NCBI RefSeq assembly: GCF_018913465.1
Contig: NZ_JABAPM010000004.1
Coordinates: 1-64,000 of the forward strand
DNA from: Arcanobacterium phocae
GTDB lineage: Bacteria > Actinomycetota > Actinomycetes > Actinomycetales > Actinomycetaceae
DNA length: 64,000 nt
Direction: 5' to 3'
Shown here: positions 5,207 to 13,283 of the stretch, piece by piece
How positions within the stretch are numbered: position 1 is the stretch's first letter
Layout of the letters: each line of letters begins with the position of its first letter
Notes under the pieces: generated by a model
Told to the model about the DNA's origin: nothing
What the model saw: the letters and a program-made list of their open reading frames with translations, nothing else
The model's database searches: none
Program-made: the position numbers and the translations under genes

Positions 5207-8017
5207 TTAGCTTTCCTTGCGAATACTAAGGGTCATACCAGAGGTAATAAGAATCATCGCGAATAGTACAACTGCGCCAACGCTCGATCCTGTTTTAGCT
5301 AGGCCAGTTCCCGTTGCTTGTGCCTCCACAACCTTTGGTGATTGTGGCAACGTGGTTGCCGGTACGAGCGGCAGTGCCGGGATTGTTTCTGTGGCTGGGG
5401 TGAGCTCTAGTGCTGGGATTGTTTCCTTGGCTGGGGTGAGTTCCATGGCTGGGATTGTTTCTTTACCTGGGGTGAGTTCCATGGCTGGGACTGTTTCTGT
5501 GGCTGGGGTGAGCTCTAGTGCTGGGATTGTTTCCTTGGCTGGGGTCAGATCCAGTGCCGGAATGATTTCGGTAGCAGTCAATGTCACTCGAACTGCCATA
5601 TCCTTCATCTCTTGCGCACTTCGCTTAAACGTTGTTCCAGCAGGTACCTTCATAGTCAACATAGCGGCTACGGTGTCGCCTGCTTTTGCTTTATCAGTCG
5701 TAGCGTAGGAAAGAGTGGAATCATTCAATGATACATTCCATGACTGTGGAGTTTCAGACTCCAGTGCTAACTTGATGTCGGTTGCTTTAGGTAATACCGA
5801 ATGAATGTCGAAGCTCTGAGCTTCAGCTCCCATGGTAACCTTCTTCTGAATTTCAGCAAGGTTCAAGTTATCGCAAGCATCGCCGACTCCATCGCTATCG
5901 GTGTCGAGCTGATCTTCATTCGCAACATCTGGGCAGTTGTCGATGCTTTGATCGACTAAGTCGCCATCTTCTGTCACACCAACCATGATGGTAGCGATTG
6001 CGGTTTGCTTGTCCTTATCTGTGATGGTAACCGAAACAGTATGCTCGCCTACTGTTGTAAAAGCATGCGATATCTTGTTTTCTGATGTGGTGGCATCTGG
6101 TTGTCCATCGCCGTTGAAATCCCATGCATATGACTCAATGTCGCTGTTAGGTGAGAAAGATCCATCAGCACTGAACTCGACGGCGTGACCTTGTTTTTGG
6201 GTAGGAACTTGACCGAGTTTTGCGGTAGGTGCTTCCAGAATCAGTGGACGTAAATCGCCAAGTAGCTGCATCCGACCACCAGTTCGGGTAAAGAGAGATG
6301 GGATGGGATCAGTACGGTCAGCGTCAAGGTCGATGAGGTTAAACTCGACAGTGTTAGCTGCGAATGCGCTCAGGAGCAGGCTCTGAACTTTCTCACCAAG
6401 CTTGGATGTATCCTTCAGCTCTGCATCGCCAATGACGACGACAATCTTTCGAGCTTCAGCGCGCCATTCATTCGATTCGGTTACAGCTTTAAGGGTTGTC
6501 AAGAAATCTTGTGCATTCTGGTCCGTGGTTGTGCCTAAATTGTTAAGTGAGTTAAGGACATCAGAAAGCTCGCCGAATGACGTTGTTGCAGCTGGTCCTT
6601 CAGCTGGGGCATCCACGTTGCCATCTGCTGGTGCTGGATCGGCAACTTCTGCTGGCTCAGTGCCCGCTGCGGGCTTAGTAGTCTCCGTGGACTGAGTAGC
6701 GTTCTCTTCTAGCTCGATAGCTTCTGCTGGCGCAGTAGTTTCTGAAGGCTGAGTGGCAGTGGCCTTAGGCTGGGAATCATCTGGTAGATCAGGTACAACT
6801 GATTCTACTGGAGAATTTGCTTCAGATTGTGGAACATCTGGGAGGCTGGTATCAGCCTGAGCTTCCGCATAAGGAATTGGCTCGTCGCCAACGTACGATT
6901 TTAAGCTAAAACGGGCATCTTTGTCCGCATTCGCAGAGGCATCAAAAGTTTCTGTAGCGATACGACGAATCTGCTTCTTAATTTCAGGTAGCTTTGCTTT
7001 TGTCTGCGAGGACGCTTCAACTAGGAAAGTAACGTCGATCGGGCGAGCGTAACTTTGTTGTGTGCGGGCAGAATTCGGCACTCCAATAGCCTTATAAAGA
7101 AGTTTTCCAATTTCTTCATGACCAGTGATATTCGGATGATAGAACATCATGGTGTTCTTTGACCACTCTGCTTGAGTAATGCCGTTTTTGTCAGCGCGAC
7201 CATTTTCTTCGGCTAGCTCATTAAACCAGCGTTTCGGGTTGTAAGTAATTGAGCTTGGATCTGGTTCGTGGCCTTCAAAAGCAACATGAGTTGGAACGAA
7301 TTTCACTTTCACATGAGAAGGAGTTTCGTTCCACTTAGCTACAAGACCAGTTTGTAGATCAACTGCCTTTTTACCAAAGGCTCGTACTTCACGTGAAGCA
7401 TCGTATTTGTCACCTGATCCAAACCAGCCACTAGACAAGATAAATTCTTTGTCTAGCGATAAATACGGGTACCCAACCATGACGATTTCAGCATCTGCTG
7501 ATAAGCGTTCATTTAGTTGGTTAAGAATCTCTTCCACATTTTTAAAGGTCGCATCGATCTTATCGTTAGCCGTAGAAATAGCCGCCTTACATTTGGCATA
7601 TTCTCCAACAGGATATGGAACAAAGCAACCCGATATAATATTTTGGAACTCGATGTCATTACCGCCGATAGTAAACAGAACGATATCTGAATCTACTGGA
7701 ACTTGGGAGATCTGTTTATCTAATACTCCTTTAGTAACCTGCCCCGATTCGGCTAGATTATGTACTGTGGTGTGGACGCCCGCAGCATTAAGCTGGTCAG
7801 CGTAAACGTGACCCCAGTTTCGCATACTCCGGTATGCTTCGGTTGGTCCATAATACAAACCAGCACCGTTACCGGCTGTGTAGGAATCTCCAATGAGAGT
7901 TAAGGTCAGATACTTTTCATCTTGGTGAGATGTGTCCGCTAATGCGGGAGAGGCAGTGAATAATGATGCTGATAGTGCAACAAAACCTGCGAATAACTTC
8001 TTCGTTACAAATTTCAT
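5207..8017 (-). CDS. Wall-anchored multidomain SGNH/GDSL hydrolase (LAKTG signal)
   Basis: 936 residues. A signal peptide (1-27, ending SPALA) precedes an SGNH hydrolase domain (about 35-315): GDSYTAG with the nucleophile Ser near residue 45, IGGND near 118, and HPNITGH near 298. A degenerate von Willebrand A-like region follows (VTFLVEASSQ, later IVVVIGDAEL), interrupted by a Pro/Glu/Thr/Ala-rich linker. Next come a PKD domain (YAWDFNGDG), one thrombospondin type-3 calcium repeat (DTDSDGVGDACD), six 12-residue repeats, and an LAKTG sorting signal with hydrophobic helix and basic tail. The family hydrolyses ester bonds (lipids, acetylated sugars); the substrate is unknown. Its ATG lies four bases after the upstream gene's stop with no clear ribosome site, so translation is probably coupled. 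Confidence 0.88.
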   Translation of the reverse strand: MKFVTKKLFAGFVALSASLFTASPALADTSHQDEKYLTLTLIGDSYTAGNGAGLYYGPTEAYRSMRNWGHVYADQLNAAGVHTTVHNLAESGQVTKGVLDKQISQVPVDSDIVLFTIGGNDIEFQNIISGCFVPYPVGEYAKCKAAISTANDKIDATFKNVEEILNQLNERLSADAEIVMVGYPYLSLDKEFILSSGWFGSGDKYDASREVRAFGKKAVDLQTGLVAKWNETPSHVKVKFVPTHVAFEGHEPDPSSITYNPKRWFNELAEENGRADKNGITQAEWSKNTMMFYHPNITGHEEIGKLLYKAIGVPNSARTQQSYARPIDVTFLVEASSQTKAKLPEIKKQIRRIATETFDASANADKDARFSLKSYVGDEPIPYAEAQADTSLPDVPQSEANSPVESVVPDLPDDSQPKATATQPSETTAPAEAIELEENATQSTETTKPAAGTEPAEVADPAPADGNVDAPAEGPAATTSFGELSDVLNSLNNLGTTTDQNAQDFLTTLKAVTESNEWRAEARKIVVVIGDAELKDTSKLGEKVQSLLLSAFAANTVEFNLIDLDADRTDPIPSLFTRTGGRMQLLGDLRPLILEAPTAKLGQVPTQKQGHAVEFSADGSFSPNSDIESYAWDFNGDGQPDATTSENKISHAFTTVGEHTVSVTITDKDKQTAIATIMVGVTEDGDLVDQSIDNCPDVANEDQLDTDSDGVGDACDNLNLAEIQKKVTMGAEAQSFDIHSVLPKATDIKLALESETPQSWNVSLNDSTLSYATTDKAKAGDTVAAMLTMKVPAGTTFKRSAQEMKDMAVRVTLTATEIIPALDLTPAKETIPALELTPATETVPAMELTPGKETIPAMELTPAKETIPALELTPATETIPALPLVPATTLPQSPKVVEAQATGTGLAKTGSSVGAVVLFAMILITSGMTLSIRKES
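5361..5580 (-). repeat. 36-bp coding tandem repeat (wall-spanning stalk)
   Basis: Six imperfect 36-bp units encode variants of KETIPALELTPA (K/T, L/M and I/V changes) just before the LAKTG signal. Such Pro-rich repeats usually span the wall, and copy number often varies between strains. Confidence 0.85.
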
Positions 8018-8619: not shown

Positions 8620-9633
8620 TTAGATAAACAAGAAATGGAAAACCGCATAGAAAACAGCTGCCACAATCGCGGCTGCCGGCATGGTTAAGAACCATGCGCC
8701 TACAATCGACTTCGTGACTGACCAGCGAACAGCCGAAAGCCGCTTCGTTGCGCCCGCACCCATAATCGCAGACGTGATAGTGTGCGTCGTCGAAATTGGA
8801 GCGTGGTACAAGAAAGCCGTCGTGTAAAGGACCGACGACGCCACCGATTCGGCGACAAAACCCTGCGACGGATCAAGATCGATAATCTTCGAACCCAACG
8901 TTTTCATAATTCGCCAGCCGCCAGAATAGGTTCCCAACGAAATCGCAGAAGCTGCACCGAGTTTGACCCACAGTGGTACCGCATGTCCCTCATGAAATCC
9001 GCCAGCGACCAAGGCGAGAACAACAACGCCCATCGTCTTCTGCGCGTCTTGCAAGCCGTGACCCAAAGCGGTTGCTGCTGCGGAAACCGTTTGCGCATAA
9101 CGGAACCGGCGCATCGTAGGACGGTAGGCGAAGTTAGCGAAGACGCGCATCACAATTGACATCAGTAGGTAAGCCAACACGAATCCCACAACGGGAGAGA
9201 CGAACATCGGCAACACAACTTTTTCGCCAATAACGCTCCACTGAACTGAAATAGATGCGGCCAAGCCAGCACCCGCAAGTCCGCCGATCAATGCGTGTGA
9301 CGACGACGACGGAAGCCCCAGCCACCACGTTATGAGATTCCAGGTAACTGCACCAACAAGTCCAGACAAAACAACGAATAAGGCTACGAGCTGATTCTCC
9401 ACACCGCTGATGTCAACAATGCCTGAACCAATAGTTTCAGCAACACCAGTTCCTAACAAGGCGCCGACGAAATTCATAATCGCGGCCATGATTAGCGCAG
9501 TTCGCGGTGCAAGCGCACGGGTAGCTACCGAGGTAGCAATGGCATTCGCGGCATCATGGAAGCCGTTGGTGAAATCGAATGCGAACGCAATCAAGATCAC
9601 CATGCCAACGATAAGGGTGGTCGAAGCGAACAT
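8620..9633 (-). CDS. pit: Low-affinity inorganic phosphate transporter (PiT family)
   Basis: 337 residues with about nine or ten hydrophobic helices. The two PiT signatures are present: FDFTNGFHDAANAIATS near the N terminus and GHGLQDAQKTMG in the middle. The family carries metal-phosphate with protons across the cytoplasmic membrane. The start overlaps the upstream DUF47 stop (TGATG), so both are made together, the usual PiT/accessory pairing. Length is typical of short actinobacterial Pit proteins. Confidence 0.93.
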   Translation of the reverse strand: MFASTTLIVGMVILIAFAFDFTNGFHDAANAIATSVATRALAPRTALIMAAIMNFVGALLGTGVAETIGSGIVDISGVENQLVALFVVLSGLVGAVTWNLITWWLGLPSSSSHALIGGLAGAGLAASISVQWSVIGEKVVLPMFVSPVVGFVLAYLLMSIVMRVFANFAYRPTMRRFRYAQTVSAAATALGHGLQDAQKTMGVVVLALVAGGFHEGHAVPLWVKLGAASAISLGTYSGGWRIMKTLGSKIIDLDPSQGFVAESVASSVLYTTAFLYHAPISTTHTITSAIMGAGATKRLSAVRWSVTKSIVGAWFLTMPAAAIVAAVFYAVFHFLFI

Positions 9634-10259
9634 CAGGACTCCTTGATCGCGATGCCCTCGATTGACACGGCTAGAGTTTCAAAACTGTCAATTGCTGCTT
9701 CGAGTGCATCAACAACGAACTTGATCTTCAAGACTTCTAAAGCGTTCGCGTCGTCGTCGGCAAAGATCTCTCGCATAAGCTTGCGATAAATCTTGTCGCC
9801 TTGGTTCTCAAGCTGGTTAATCTCCAACGCGAATTTCTTTGTATGCTCGCCCATCGACGCAATAAGCTTCATGGCGTCGTTCGTCAGAACTGCACACTTA
9901 GAAATGATGTCGATCATCTCCAGTGCTTTTTCAGGAAGCTCATTGACCCGGTACAGAACCATGTTGTCGCCAGCTTCGTCGATCAGATCAACGATATCAT
10001 CAACAGTTGAAACAAGACCGTAGATATCTTCACGATCGTAAGGAAGAACAAAGCTGTGGGCAACCTTCTGCAAGACGTCATGGGTGCCGTCATCTGCGAG
10101 GTTTTCAACTTGGTGAAGTCTCTTGTTCAGATCCTTACGAGTTGAACGGTCAGCCGTACCCATCTGTGCCAAAATCTCAGCAGCAGAAACGATATGGTTG
10201 GCTTGCTTTGCGAACATTTCCAGCACGGCTTTACCCGGTGCAAATTTACTTAGACTCAC
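9633..10259 (-). CDS. DUF47/PhoU-like accessory protein of Pit
   Basis: 208 residues, all-helical by composition. The DUF47 pattern is clear: FAKQANHIVSAAEIL, KNLADDGTHDV-like segment ENLADDGTHDVLQ, and DREDIYGLVSTVDDIVDLIDEAGDN with the metal-binding Asp/Glu residues. Proteins of this family accompany PiT transporters and are thought to regulate them. It starts with GTG (10257-10259) and is the first gene of the two-gene minus-strand operon. The 260-base gap upstream (10260-10520) must hold the divergent promoters of this operon and of the symporter; I see no riboswitch there. Confidence 0.9.
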   Translation of the reverse strand: MSLSKFAPGKAVLEMFAKQANHIVSAAEILAQMGTADRSTRKDLNKRLHQVENLADDGTHDVLQKVAHSFVLPYDREDIYGLVSTVDDIVDLIDEAGDNMVLYRVNELPEKALEMIDIISKCAVLTNDAMKLIASMGEHTKKFALEINQLENQGDKIYRKLMREIFADDDANALEVLKIKFVVDALEAAIDSFETLAVSIEGIAIKES

Positions 10260-10520
10260 AATGCCCTCAGAACACTAAGTGAACAGTTGTCGCTTTCACC
10301 TTACGTGGCGAAAGCTAAGTGCGCTTGTTAAATCATGAATTAAGTAGACGTGAGTCGCATATTTCACAAGGTCTTTTGTCTCTGGACAGCCAGCTTATAT
10401 GCGCTTCTGTGGCGCAGCCGTTTCATGACTATATAGTGGACAACTGGTCTATCTAGTGCGAGAAGCCGGTAAGATGGCGTTGTTTATGACGAAAATACTC
10501 CTATGGAAAGAGGTGTAGGC

Positions 10521-11945
10521 GTGGCTGTTGACGACGTGATTCAGGATATGACTACCTGGCTAAGCAGTGTTAATGATTGGCTCTACACCTGGATAATGAT
10601 CTGTGCTTTAGTGGGGACCGGCTTGTATCTCACGGTTCGAACTCGAGCAGTCCAGCTCCGGCATTTCACAGGGATGGCACGCAACCTCGTGCATTCACGT
10701 AGTGGTGCGCGGGGTGGGATTTCATCTTTCCAAGCATTTGCAATGGGGATGTCTACCCGCATCGGAATTGGAAACATTACCGGTATAGCTTTGGCAATGA
10801 TCCTGGGTGGTCCCGGTTCGCTCTTCTGGATGTGGATAGTTGCACTCGTAGGCATGGCCACTGCTTTTTCGGAGGCGACCTTGGCGCAGATCTTCAAATT
10901 TCGCCATAACGATGGGTCTTTTCGAGGCGGTCCGGCCTCCTATATTATGGACGGCTTGAAATCGCGCAAGCTAGCAGTTGTTTTTGCCTCTGCCATGGTC
11001 TTTTGTATGTTCGTTGCGATGCCAATGGTTCAGGCGAACACAATTTCGCATGTTATCTCAAGTGCTCACGGCGTCGAGCCTTGGGTTATTGGGCTGATTA
11101 TTTCTGGGCTAACCGCACTCGTGCTTTTTGGCGGCGTGCGCCGGGTAGCACAGGCGACCGAGATTATTGCGCCGTTGATGGCACTGTTCTACTTAGTGGT
11201 AGCTCTTATTATTATTTGCTTAAACATCGGTGCAATCCCGCAGTTCTTTGCCGATATTTTCGCGTCGGCTTTTGGGTTGCGGGAAACTTTCGTGGGGACG
11301 GGGTCGGCCTTCGTAGCGGCGTTGCTGAACGGGACGCGCCGTGGTTTGTTCTCTAATGAGGCAGGCATGGGGACATCTCCGAATGCTGCCGCGACAGCAA
11401 CGGTAGATCATCCGGTTCAGCAAGGTTTAATTCAAGCGTTCGGGGTATTTCTGGACACAGTTGTTATCTGCACTGCAACCGGGTTTATTGTATCTACCAC
11501 CGGAGCGCTCGATTACTCATCCGTCACTGCCGAAGATGCTGCGCATATCACCACCGATGCAATCACCGCTACCCTGGGGTCGTGGATGGCGTGGCCGGTG
11601 TCAATCATGATTTTCTTCTTCGGATTCTCCTCAATCTTGGGTGCCTATGCGTATGGTGAGGCTAATCTGGTCTTTTTGAAAAAATCGCGACCACTTGAGT
11701 TGATTTCCCGTGCAGTGTTGGTGGTTTTCAGCTTCATCGGTTCAATCATGGCCTTAACGTTCGTATGGACAGTTATGGACACCGCAATGTTTGTGGTGAC
11801 GTTACTGAACCTTGTTGCGATCTGGGCGTTGGCACCCTGGATTGTGGCGTTGCTTCGGGACTATGAGCGCCAGGGGAGGTCTCCGGCGGTATTCCGGGCT
11901 GATCAGGCTGAAATACCGGGCGAATTGCCGTCCGATGTTTGGTGA
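10521..11945 (+). CDS. Sodium:alanine/glycine symporter (AGCS family)
   Basis: 474 residues with about ten or eleven transmembrane helices. Family hallmarks include GMSTRIGIGNITGIALA, GGPASYIMDG and the strongly conserved FSNEAGMGTSPNAAATA. AGCS carriers import alanine or glycine with sodium. GTG 10521 is preferred because AAAGAGGTG lies five bases upstream; an in-frame ATG at 10503 has no ribosome site. The gene ends at the long bidirectional hairpin 11964-12027. Confidence 0.9.
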   Translation: MAVDDVIQDMTTWLSSVNDWLYTWIMICALVGTGLYLTVRTRAVQLRHFTGMARNLVHSRSGARGGISSFQAFAMGMSTRIGIGNITGIALAMILGGPGSLFWMWIVALVGMATAFSEATLAQIFKFRHNDGSFRGGPASYIMDGLKSRKLAVVFASAMVFCMFVAMPMVQANTISHVISSAHGVEPWVIGLIISGLTALVLFGGVRRVAQATEIIAPLMALFYLVVALIIICLNIGAIPQFFADIFASAFGLRETFVGTGSAFVAALLNGTRRGLFSNEAGMGTSPNAAATATVDHPVQQGLIQAFGVFLDTVVICTATGFIVSTTGALDYSSVTAEDAAHITTDAITATLGSWMAWPVSIMIFFFGFSSILGAYAYGEANLVFLKKSRPLELISRAVLVVFSFIGSIMALTFVWTVMDTAMFVVTLLNLVAIWALAPWIVALLRDYERQGRSPAVFRADQAEIPGELPSDVW

Positions 11946-11963
11946 ACTCTCTCTGCTACGTAT

Positions 11964-12027
11964 AAAATCTCGAAATCCAGCACGGTAGAGGCCTATAGAG
12001 TACTACCGTTTCGCTGGACGAGATTTT
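11964..12027. terminator. Long bidirectional terminator hairpin
   Basis: A 22-bp imperfect stem (AAAATCTCG, TCCAGC and ACGGTAG pairing with CTACCGT, GCTGGA and CGAGATTTT; three-base bulges) closes a 14-base loop. It ends in TTTT on both strands, so it can end the AGCS gene and, on the minus strand, the candidate RNA. Confidence 0.75.
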
Positions 12028-12240
12028 GTGCGTACTGCCGGGTGAGGCAGCCGGGCCAGGGTTACTGGGTGGAGCCGCCGGGTGGGCAGCCAGGGCCGGG
12101 CAACGCAACAGGGGTCGCAACCTTTCGCCGCGACCCCTGCCGAAGTCAAGGACACCGGATCCGAGAGCGCCTGTCGGCGCGAAGGCCGCTCGTAGCGGCA
12201 AATATTTGGAGCCCGGGGCTTTCACGACCCGGTGTCTTGT
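11964..12240 (-). ncRNA. Candidate free-standing structured RNA, about 277 nt
   Basis: The gap between the symporter and the next gene (11946-12419) contains a GC-rich, protein-free block. On the minus strand it has a promoter (12246-12275) and a terminator (11964-12027). From the 5' end it shows a closed multi-branch domain: GACACCGG (12151-12158) pairs with CCGGTGTC (12229-12236) around hairpins GCCGCT/AGCGGC and GCGCC/GGCGC. A 10-bp hairpin follows (12109-12118 with 12130-12139), then a C-rich stretch (12037-12100) with repeated CCCGGC and a duplicated GGCTGCC-ACCCGGC element. It does not match tmRNA, RNase P RNA, SRP RNA or 6C RNA hallmarks. No gene follows in the same direction, so it is more likely trans-acting than a riboswitch. 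Confidence 0.6.
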
Positions 12241-12245
12241 CTAAA

Positions 12246-12275
12246 ACTATAGTGGTGCCTGCCTTGGTTTGTCAC
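12246..12275 (-). promoter_or_regulatory. Promoter for the candidate RNA
   Basis: On the minus strand GTGACA (12270-12275) is separated by 18 bases from TATAGT (12246-12251). Start of transcription would fall near 12240, just before the closing stem of the RNA. The rest of 12276-12419 holds nothing I can name and presumably contains the start signals of the next plus-strand gene. Confidence 0.6.
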
Positions 12276-12419
12276 CCCAAAATAGGTGCACACTTTCCAT
12301 TTCTACTGCACACTGTTGCAGGGTCGCTTAGGTGATGCATGACGGGTTTAGCGGATTCACTATCTTGTGTTTCGTCCCATCTTTCCCAATAATTTGCCAG
12401 TTGTGAAACAATGTAATTT

Positions 12420-13283
12420 GTGAATACAACGGAACCACAATCAACCCTTGATGAAGTGTCTGCGTCGGTGCCGGTTCAGTCTGTGCCTGCGTCACCGCAA
12501 CTTGCCTCACTGCAACTTGCCTCGCCGCAACCTGCCTCGGCCCAGTCGCCATCAGATCAGCTTTTAACCGCAGCCTGGGCAAAGCGAGCTGGCTATGCGC
12601 GCGCATTGATCGGGATTTATGCCGCAACTTCATTGGCAGTTGGAGCTGTGTTTGGCCCGTATGCTATTGCGGCTGCGGTAGCAATCATGAGCGCGATTTT
12701 TATCGCAGGCTGGCCGAGCTTGCTCGATTTGCCGGCCCATGCAATCCCGCGCACAATGCTGACGTTGTTGGCTATCGCACTGATTGTGACGGGCCTTTTT
12801 GGGACTGTTGCACATTCGGCTATTGTCGGGGCGGCGAGTGTTATTGCTGCGTTCATTGCGGAAATGTTCCGCACCGATGGGCGACCGCGTTTGATCGAGC
12901 AGCTCTCGGGCGGTTTTGCTGGCGCGGTTGTGTTGATGTCGGGCTCGCTATGGATCCATGCAATGCGGTTAAGTCACGGTAAAAATGTTGTCATTGTGAC
13001 TGCCATGGCGATAGCGATTGTGGCAGTTATGCATGCGTTTGATTCAGTGGCGGCGCGGATTGCTGGTTTTGTTAACGGTATTGCTTTTGCGATTGGTTTT
13101 GGCTATTTGACTCAGCTGTGGGTTGAATCGTCGGTGTTGATCGGGGTATTCACGGCGAGTGCTTATTTGCTGACTGCACGCGGAGTATTGGAGATGCCAC
13201 GCCCGTCGCCAGCGATTAATGGGGCGGCTCGGGCGATGATTCCGCCATTGCTGGTGGGCGTTGTTGCGTTGATTGCCGGCTAG
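12420..13283 (+). CDS. Multi-pass membrane protein of unknown function
   Basis: 287 residues. A Ser/Pro/Gln/Ala-rich N-terminal tail (1-48) is followed by about eight hydrophobic helices with few charged loops. I do not recognise a transporter signature; similar small polytopic proteins occur in Actinomycetaceae. The frame opens with GTG 12420, without a ribosome site, and no later Met comes before the first helix, so the start is uncertain and could be leaderless. The 33-base gap to the nitrobindin-like gene suggests co-transcription. Confidence 0.7.
   Translation: MNTTEPQSTLDEVSASVPVQSVPASPQLASLQLASPQPASAQSPSDQLLTAAWAKRAGYARALIGIYAATSLAVGAVFGPYAIAAAVAIMSAIFIAGWPSLLDLPAHAIPRTMLTLLAIALIVTGLFGTVAHSAIVGAASVIAAFIAEMFRTDGRPRLIEQLSGGFAGAVVLMSGSLWIHAMRLSHGKNVVIVTAMAIAIVAVMHAFDSVAARIAGFVNGIAFAIGFGYLTQLWVESSVLIGVFTASAYLLTARGVLEMPRPSPAINGAARAMIPPLLVGVVALIAG
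12492..12536 (+). repeat. Three 15-bp coding repeats
   Basis: Three tandem 15-bp units (12492-12506, 12507-12521, 12522-12536) encode S-P-Q-L-A, S-L-Q-L-A and S-P-Q-P-A in the N-terminal tail of the membrane protein. The DNA copies differ at only a few bases, which suggests slippage. Confidence 0.8.

Follow-up and report, generated by a model that had tools for sequence, protein, structure and literature searches.

Sequence comparison gives good support for a free-standing structured small RNA gene, uncatalogued in Rfam 15, on the minus strand of the window, by which we mean the whole 64,000-nt stretch of Arcanobacterium phocae DNA analyzed here. Its conserved core lies at 12150..12238, where covariance model R2 scores 87.2 bits (E 7.6e-17). 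We think it probable that the RNA acts in trans, that its core binds a conserved partner and adjusts a core process of the cell, and that a stress-type promoter drives it in much of the class. The original prediction, made from the letters alone, had proposed a new free-standing structured RNA at this place. It is well supported by the lack of an Rfam match, by covariation above that of every shuffled control, by near-universal occurrence in the order and by conserved upstream promoters.

The structured core comprises about 85 nt (12151-12236, minus strand) and starts a few bases past the putative -10 box. A 351-nt BLASTN query (window 11950-12300) matched in 59 of 59 relatives, and beyond the closest species the match was limited to query positions ~56-152, corresponding to window positions ~12150-12245. 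The family is thus shorter than the 277 nt first proposed, with a core of ~85 nt plus a hairpin, or about 140 nt. From the promoter position, the closing helix P1 and the hairpin at 12109-12139, we infer a transcript of ~140 nt (12102..12240, minus strand) that would start near 12240 and end just past this terminator-like hairpin. The hairpin (12109..12139, minus strand; arms 12109-12118 and 12130-12139; -25.6 kcal/mol) lies directly 3' of P1 and has a weak tail, UUGCGUUGC. It had been recognized from the start and is real. Many relatives carry a terminator-like hairpin of different sequence in the same place, at most ~15 nt past the core (e.g. L033 and L040). Such hairpins are only modestly enriched (44 of 152 loci, compared with 10 of 60 shuffled), which leaves the 3' end as the least secure feature of the RNA's anatomy.

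The block at 12000-12200 is GC-rich, as first described, with a GC fraction of 0.68-0.72 against about 0.5 in its surroundings. Predicted folding was far more stable than that of shuffled sequences both for 11950-12300 (z = -5.07) and for 12100-12240 (z = -5.62), and no shuffle was as good in either case. Core lengths among homologues are evenly spread modulo 3 (57/52/43), which indicates that the element is not coding. In a search for a conserved reading frame, none had a start in as many as half of the homologues. These two results rule out a gene for a small protein or peptide, in line with the initial impression that the block encodes no credible protein.

What had been taken for the terminator of the transcript, a 22-bp hairpin at 11964-12032, is a dispersed palindromic repeat of ~69 nt. 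The distal part of the BLASTN query (positions ~269-337) matches about a dozen unrelated places in the same genome (on C5, C6 and C4). The repeat does not belong to the RNA family; it also occurs in two sister species (G007 and G005). In the window, the repeat follows the gene for an AGCS amino acid carrier, and it may end transcripts from both sides. Elsewhere in the window, a tandem 18-nt repeat at 5340-5569 lies within ORF 5207-8017 (minus strand) and encodes an ETIPALELTPA-type repeat close to the C-terminal end of a large protein that looks secreted.

The consensus structure is supported by three kinds of comparison: RNAalifold on 57 sequences from the order, covariation scoring on 54 sequences below 83% identity, and mutual information between columns in 149 sequences. 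Among the 54 diverged sequences, 96% of cells pair in the consensus structure and two-sided changes are found at 15 of 22 pairs. The covariation score is 0.391, compared with 0.165 in shuffles, none of which (0/500) reaches it, and structures slid along the alignment score no higher than 0.07. In this architecture an 11-bp helix, P1, closes the core and is followed by P2 and by a three-way junction from which hairpins P3 and P4 emerge. P1 pairs its 5' strand GACACCGGGUC (12226..12236, minus strand) with its 3' strand GAUCCGGUGUC (12151..12161, minus strand); compensatory changes are evident in the RNAalifold consensus, and two-sided changes occur at all 11 of its pairs. G-U pairs outnumber A-C mismatches in P1 by 193:15, which fixes the transcribed strand.

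Within P1, an inner helix that the original prediction lacked, P2, pairs AGC (12218..12220, minus strand) with GCU (12166..12168, minus strand). In the alignment of 149 sequences, the column pair that covaries most strongly belongs to P2, and those ranked next are mostly pairs of P1 and P3. One of its pairs is A-U in 22 sequences, G-C in 16 and U-A in 10, and the next appears as G-C, A-U, C-G or U-A. Between P2 and P3 runs a near-invariant junction strand, J2/3 (CCCCGGGCUCCA; 12207..12218, minus strand), the first C of which also closes P2. This strand is C-rich and predicted to be mostly unpaired. CCCCGGG and CCA are invariant within it in the 57 order sequences, as is CCCC-GG in the 54 diverged ones. 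The P3 hairpin, GCCGC-UACGA-GCGGC (12185..12199, minus strand), is paired in 100% of cells and shows a C-G/U-A exchange in 10 of 54 sequences. The P4 hairpin, GCC-GACA-GGC (12169..12178, minus strand), has a near-invariant stem and, in most of the class, a GNRA loop. The stems of P3 and P4 are almost unchanged across sequences while P1 drifts.

Two of the helices first proposed, 12151-12158 with 12229-12236 (part of P1) and 12185-12190 with 12194-12199 (P3), are real and conserved. A third, 12167-12171 with 12176-12180, stands in its inner three pairs, which form P4. The minimum-energy fold extends P4 outward in the same way, but 18 of 54 sequences cannot form that outer pair, whereas the alternative P2 covaries. 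A contact between the junction (columns 27/28) and the P4 loop (columns 62/63) was considered and rejected; the columns are correlated but not base-pair consistent, and their correlation probably reflects shared ancestry.

Conservation of the RNA, which had at first been conjecture, proved to be broad. Model R2 finds it in 393 of 396 genomes and 106 of 107 genera of the order, and in 189 of 297 genomes (71 of 115 genera) of a sample of the class. All 23 matches in a sample of 296 genomes from the phylum fall inside the class, a result that also gauges the specificity of the model; in about 270 genomes outside the class, R2 gave no match. Weak matches outside the class seen with model R1 were gone with R2. 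Among the matches listed in the scan of named genomes, all are from Actinomycetota and include Arcanobacterium, Schaalia, Bifidobacterium, Cellulomonas, Microbacterium, Brevibacterium, Rothia, Nocardioides, Kribbella, Mycolicibacterium and others. The three order genomes that have no copy (G637, G747 and G894) belong to a single genus (g348 of family f3) and measure 0.8-0.9 Mb, which suggests loss through genome reduction.

Most genomes have one copy of the gene and some have two to four. Streptomyces has a further paralogue of ~110 nt whose P3 is longer; such paralogues (L218, L219, L220, L221 and L222) are found in Streptomyces and in another large-genome genus, and those of Streptomyces have an ECF-like GGAAC motif upstream. 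At another locus (L130), two copies stand in tandem ~180 nt apart (G265:C1:1926887 and 1927069), each with a GGAA-N18-GTT promoter. One IMG/VR contig (L353) carries the RNA near its end, at 12476-12524, and this contig is probably host flank or misassigned.

The promoter first proposed on the minus strand is present at 12246..12275, with a -35 element GTGACA (12275-12270), an 18-nt spacer and a -10 element TATAGT (12251-12246); a search for this arrangement returned one site where 0.3 were expected. A TANNNT -10 element stands at the matching distance in 36 of 37 loci of the window's family, and sigma70-type -10 elements precede the RNA at 51 of 55 non-redundant loci of the order (5.4 in shuffles). 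Elsewhere in the class, GGAA[TC]-N17..19-GTT is found at 38 of 74 non-redundant loci, ending 5-16 nt ahead of the RNA, compared with 0.08 in shuffles. This motif agrees with the SigR consensus, given as GGAAT-N18-19-GTT in the available part of PMC9205884, and with the SigH consensus forms in that of PMC3489674. The version near the start is found in Streptomyces, mycobacteria, families f19, f36 and f47 and others; a leader version, ~25 nt further upstream, is found in families f38 and f4. A search for a SigR/SigH-type ECF motif in the window's family found it at none of 37 loci.

A gene for a SigH/SigR-family sigma factor (TIGR02947) is present in 58 of 59 relatives, a count that includes the genome of the window itself (at C6:122711-123271). 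The conserved promoter together with this sigma factor gene makes it likely that the RNA is stress-induced in many genera, where we would predict such control from the upstream sequences. The promoter in the window is not of the ECF type, and for this species we therefore make no claim of stress control; here the RNA is probably constitutive or otherwise regulated.

The neighborhood of the gene bears on whether it acts in cis. On the minus strand of the window lie a gene for a PhoU-like DUF47 protein (9633..10259; TIGR00153) and one for a PiT phosphate transporter (8620..9633; by family match and synteny), separated from the RNA by the opposite-strand AGCS gene (10503..11945, plus strand; TIGR00835). 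It had been stated that no same-strand gene follows, which these two genes contradict. The conclusion drawn from that statement, that the RNA acts in trans, holds, but its premise describes a special case of this genus. Elsewhere in the order DUF47 is often directly downstream, and one could envision the RNA as a riboswitch-like leader of the DUF47-PiT phosphate-uptake operon, the two having come apart later in some genera. At about 22 of 57 order loci DUF47 is the first same-strand gene downstream, no more than ~600 nt away and sometimes with no clear terminator between, and at these loci the RNA may have a cis role. AGCS intervenes at seven more, pst, ppk and mutT genes also lie near the RNA, and a compact junction with an invariant core resembles an aptamer. 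Yet the position expected of a riboswitch, the 5' leader of one consistent same-strand gene, is found only at those roughly 22 of 57 loci. The RNA has a promoter to itself, and a terminator stands ahead of DUF47 in several loci. It points away from DUF47 in one locus (L038) and is kept with no such operon nearby in others (L064-L067 and L077-L079). Across the class the neighbors are unrelated and the next gene is often on the opposite strand; judging by their translations, Streptomyces copies adjoin genes for HelD and malic enzyme, and mycobacterial copies genes for a WhiB-like protein and a carboxyltransferase. We consider a cis-acting leader highly unlikely, and reject a phosphate riboswitch as the main reading because AGCS is inserted in between, some copies are inverted and the neighbors in the class are unrelated. 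The same observations argue for a free-standing gene, one that, from these arrangements, moves and flips as an independent unit: two Streptomyces species (L121 and L122) carry it in opposite orientations with respect to the HelD and malic enzyme genes. Of the 57 order loci, only those of the window's genus and of one further genome (G033) have the AGCS insertion. Order flanks include DUF47-PiT, YgfZ, FABP-like and other genes, and at two loci (L036 and L044) a convergent pstB follows the RNA.

A free-standing RNA could also act by simple base pairing, with the exposed C-rich strand CCCCGGGCUCCA pairing to G-rich ribosome-binding sites of mRNAs and the rest serving as a scaffold, as is thought for actinobacterial sRNAs of the 6C type. 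The mostly unpaired, C-rich junction would suit such a role; the GGGCUCC found there in the order is complementary to GGAGCCC, and in two loci (L050 and L075) DUF47 has a GGGAGCC-like ribosome-binding site. However, the part of the junction that matches ribosome-binding sites is not constant across the class (GGGUCCC, GGGUACC, GGGCCC), and it is CCCCGG that is invariant. Near-invariant P3 and P4 stems are unusual in a simple antisense RNA, and a search of the own genome for complements of the junction gave six further hits at 1-2 mismatches, and none of them falls in a clear gene start region. We regard this mechanism as rather unlikely. The least probable reading, to us, is that the RNA belongs to a known family that Rfam missed, such as Ms1, 6S, 6C, SRP, tmRNA, RNase P or a published Streptomyces sRNA. 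At the gathering score, Rfam 15 recovers only three tRNAs in the window and no match besides tRNAs in 21 homologous loci, and relaxed thresholds applied to the window and to Streptomyces and Mycobacterium loci gave only chance-level matches. The initial failure to match the RNA to tmRNA, RNase P, SRP, 6S or 6C RNA therefore holds at both gathering and relaxed scores. What speaks for this reading is a name. SCO2952 encodes HelD (PMC8655204), and an sRNA called after that gene, scr2952, is reported as expressed and conserved in the part of PMC8388888 available to us. By its position beside SCO2952, the Streptomyces copy of our RNA may be the scr2952 locus. That part of the paper presents scr2952 as a Streptomyces sRNA only, and the class-wide family, structure, paralogues and ECF promoter are not described there. 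Rfam accessions looked up for scr2952 were those of other Streptomyces sRNAs. A literature search for the hairpin and junction sequences found no paper with either, and three structured-RNA surveys mention nothing similar in the passages searched. Within this literature, some of it available in part, we found no description of the class-wide family, of its consensus structure or of its promoter pattern.

We therefore favor a free-standing RNA that acts in trans. That P1 drifts while P3, P4 and the junction are frozen points to recognition of the core by a conserved partner rather than to antisense pairing alone. In such a scheme, the folded core would act as a unit that binds a conserved cellular partner, which could be a protein, RNA polymerase or the ribosome, and the exposed junction strand would be the main site of contact or pairing. 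P1, variable in sequence and covarying, would be needed only to close the structure. In the window's family a housekeeping-type promoter would drive the RNA, and over much of the remaining class a SigR/SigH-type ECF promoter would do so; the likely role of the RNA would be to tune transcription, translation or a set of mRNAs under thiol-oxidative or heat stress. A more specific version, which we put forward tentatively and hold to be less likely true than not, is that this near-universal RNA of the class attaches to a core machine, be it RNA polymerase, the ribosome or a conserved RNA-binding protein, and adjusts the working of that machine during thiol-oxidative stress. Such an RNA would be a functional counterpart of 6S and Ms1 RNA whose fold is unrelated to theirs, with housekeeping control in Actinomycetaceae and control by SigR/SigH elsewhere.

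The RNA is present in all but three order genomes and its core has hardly changed across the class, a degree of conservation on par with that of classic housekeeping RNAs. It is absent from Rfam 15 and, in the window's genus at least, located in seemingly empty intergenic DNA. The covariance model makes it annotatable in a class that includes Streptomyces, Mycobacterium, Bifidobacterium and Microbacterium. Its partner, if found, could bring to light a general step in the control of stress physiology in actinobacteria.

Like 6S, bacterial SRP, tmRNA and RNase P RNA, the window RNA combines a housekeeping-like universality in a large clade with ends joined by a closing helix; it is smaller than these, folds otherwise and has no covariance-model similarity to them. 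6C RNA (RF01066) is a short actinobacterial sRNA with an exposed C-rich sequence. The window RNA resembles it in all three respects, but 6C gives no cmscan match in the window or the homologues, and the window RNA forms a three-way junction with an 11-bp closing helix. Ms1, which binds the RNA polymerase core and is known from mycobacteria and, as scr3559, from Streptomyces, is likewise a free-standing, widespread actinobacterial RNA that has its own promoter and is not placed in cis to a target gene. Ms1 measures ~230-300 nt, adjoins a HAD hydrolase gene and is reported absent from Actinomyces, Bifidobacterium and Brevibacterium (PMC9130861). The window RNA, unlike Ms1, occurs in Bifidobacterium, in Brevibacterium and throughout the order. 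Identity of the two is ruled out by size (an ~85-nt three-way-junction core as opposed to a rod-like ~230-300 nt), by fold and by synteny. Many loci of the RNA outside the window's family share the promoter consensus GGAAT-N18-19-GTT with the SigR/SigH regulon. The members of this regulon discussed in the available parts of PMC9205884 and PMC3489674 are protein-coding genes, and the RNA described here would be a structured-RNA member.
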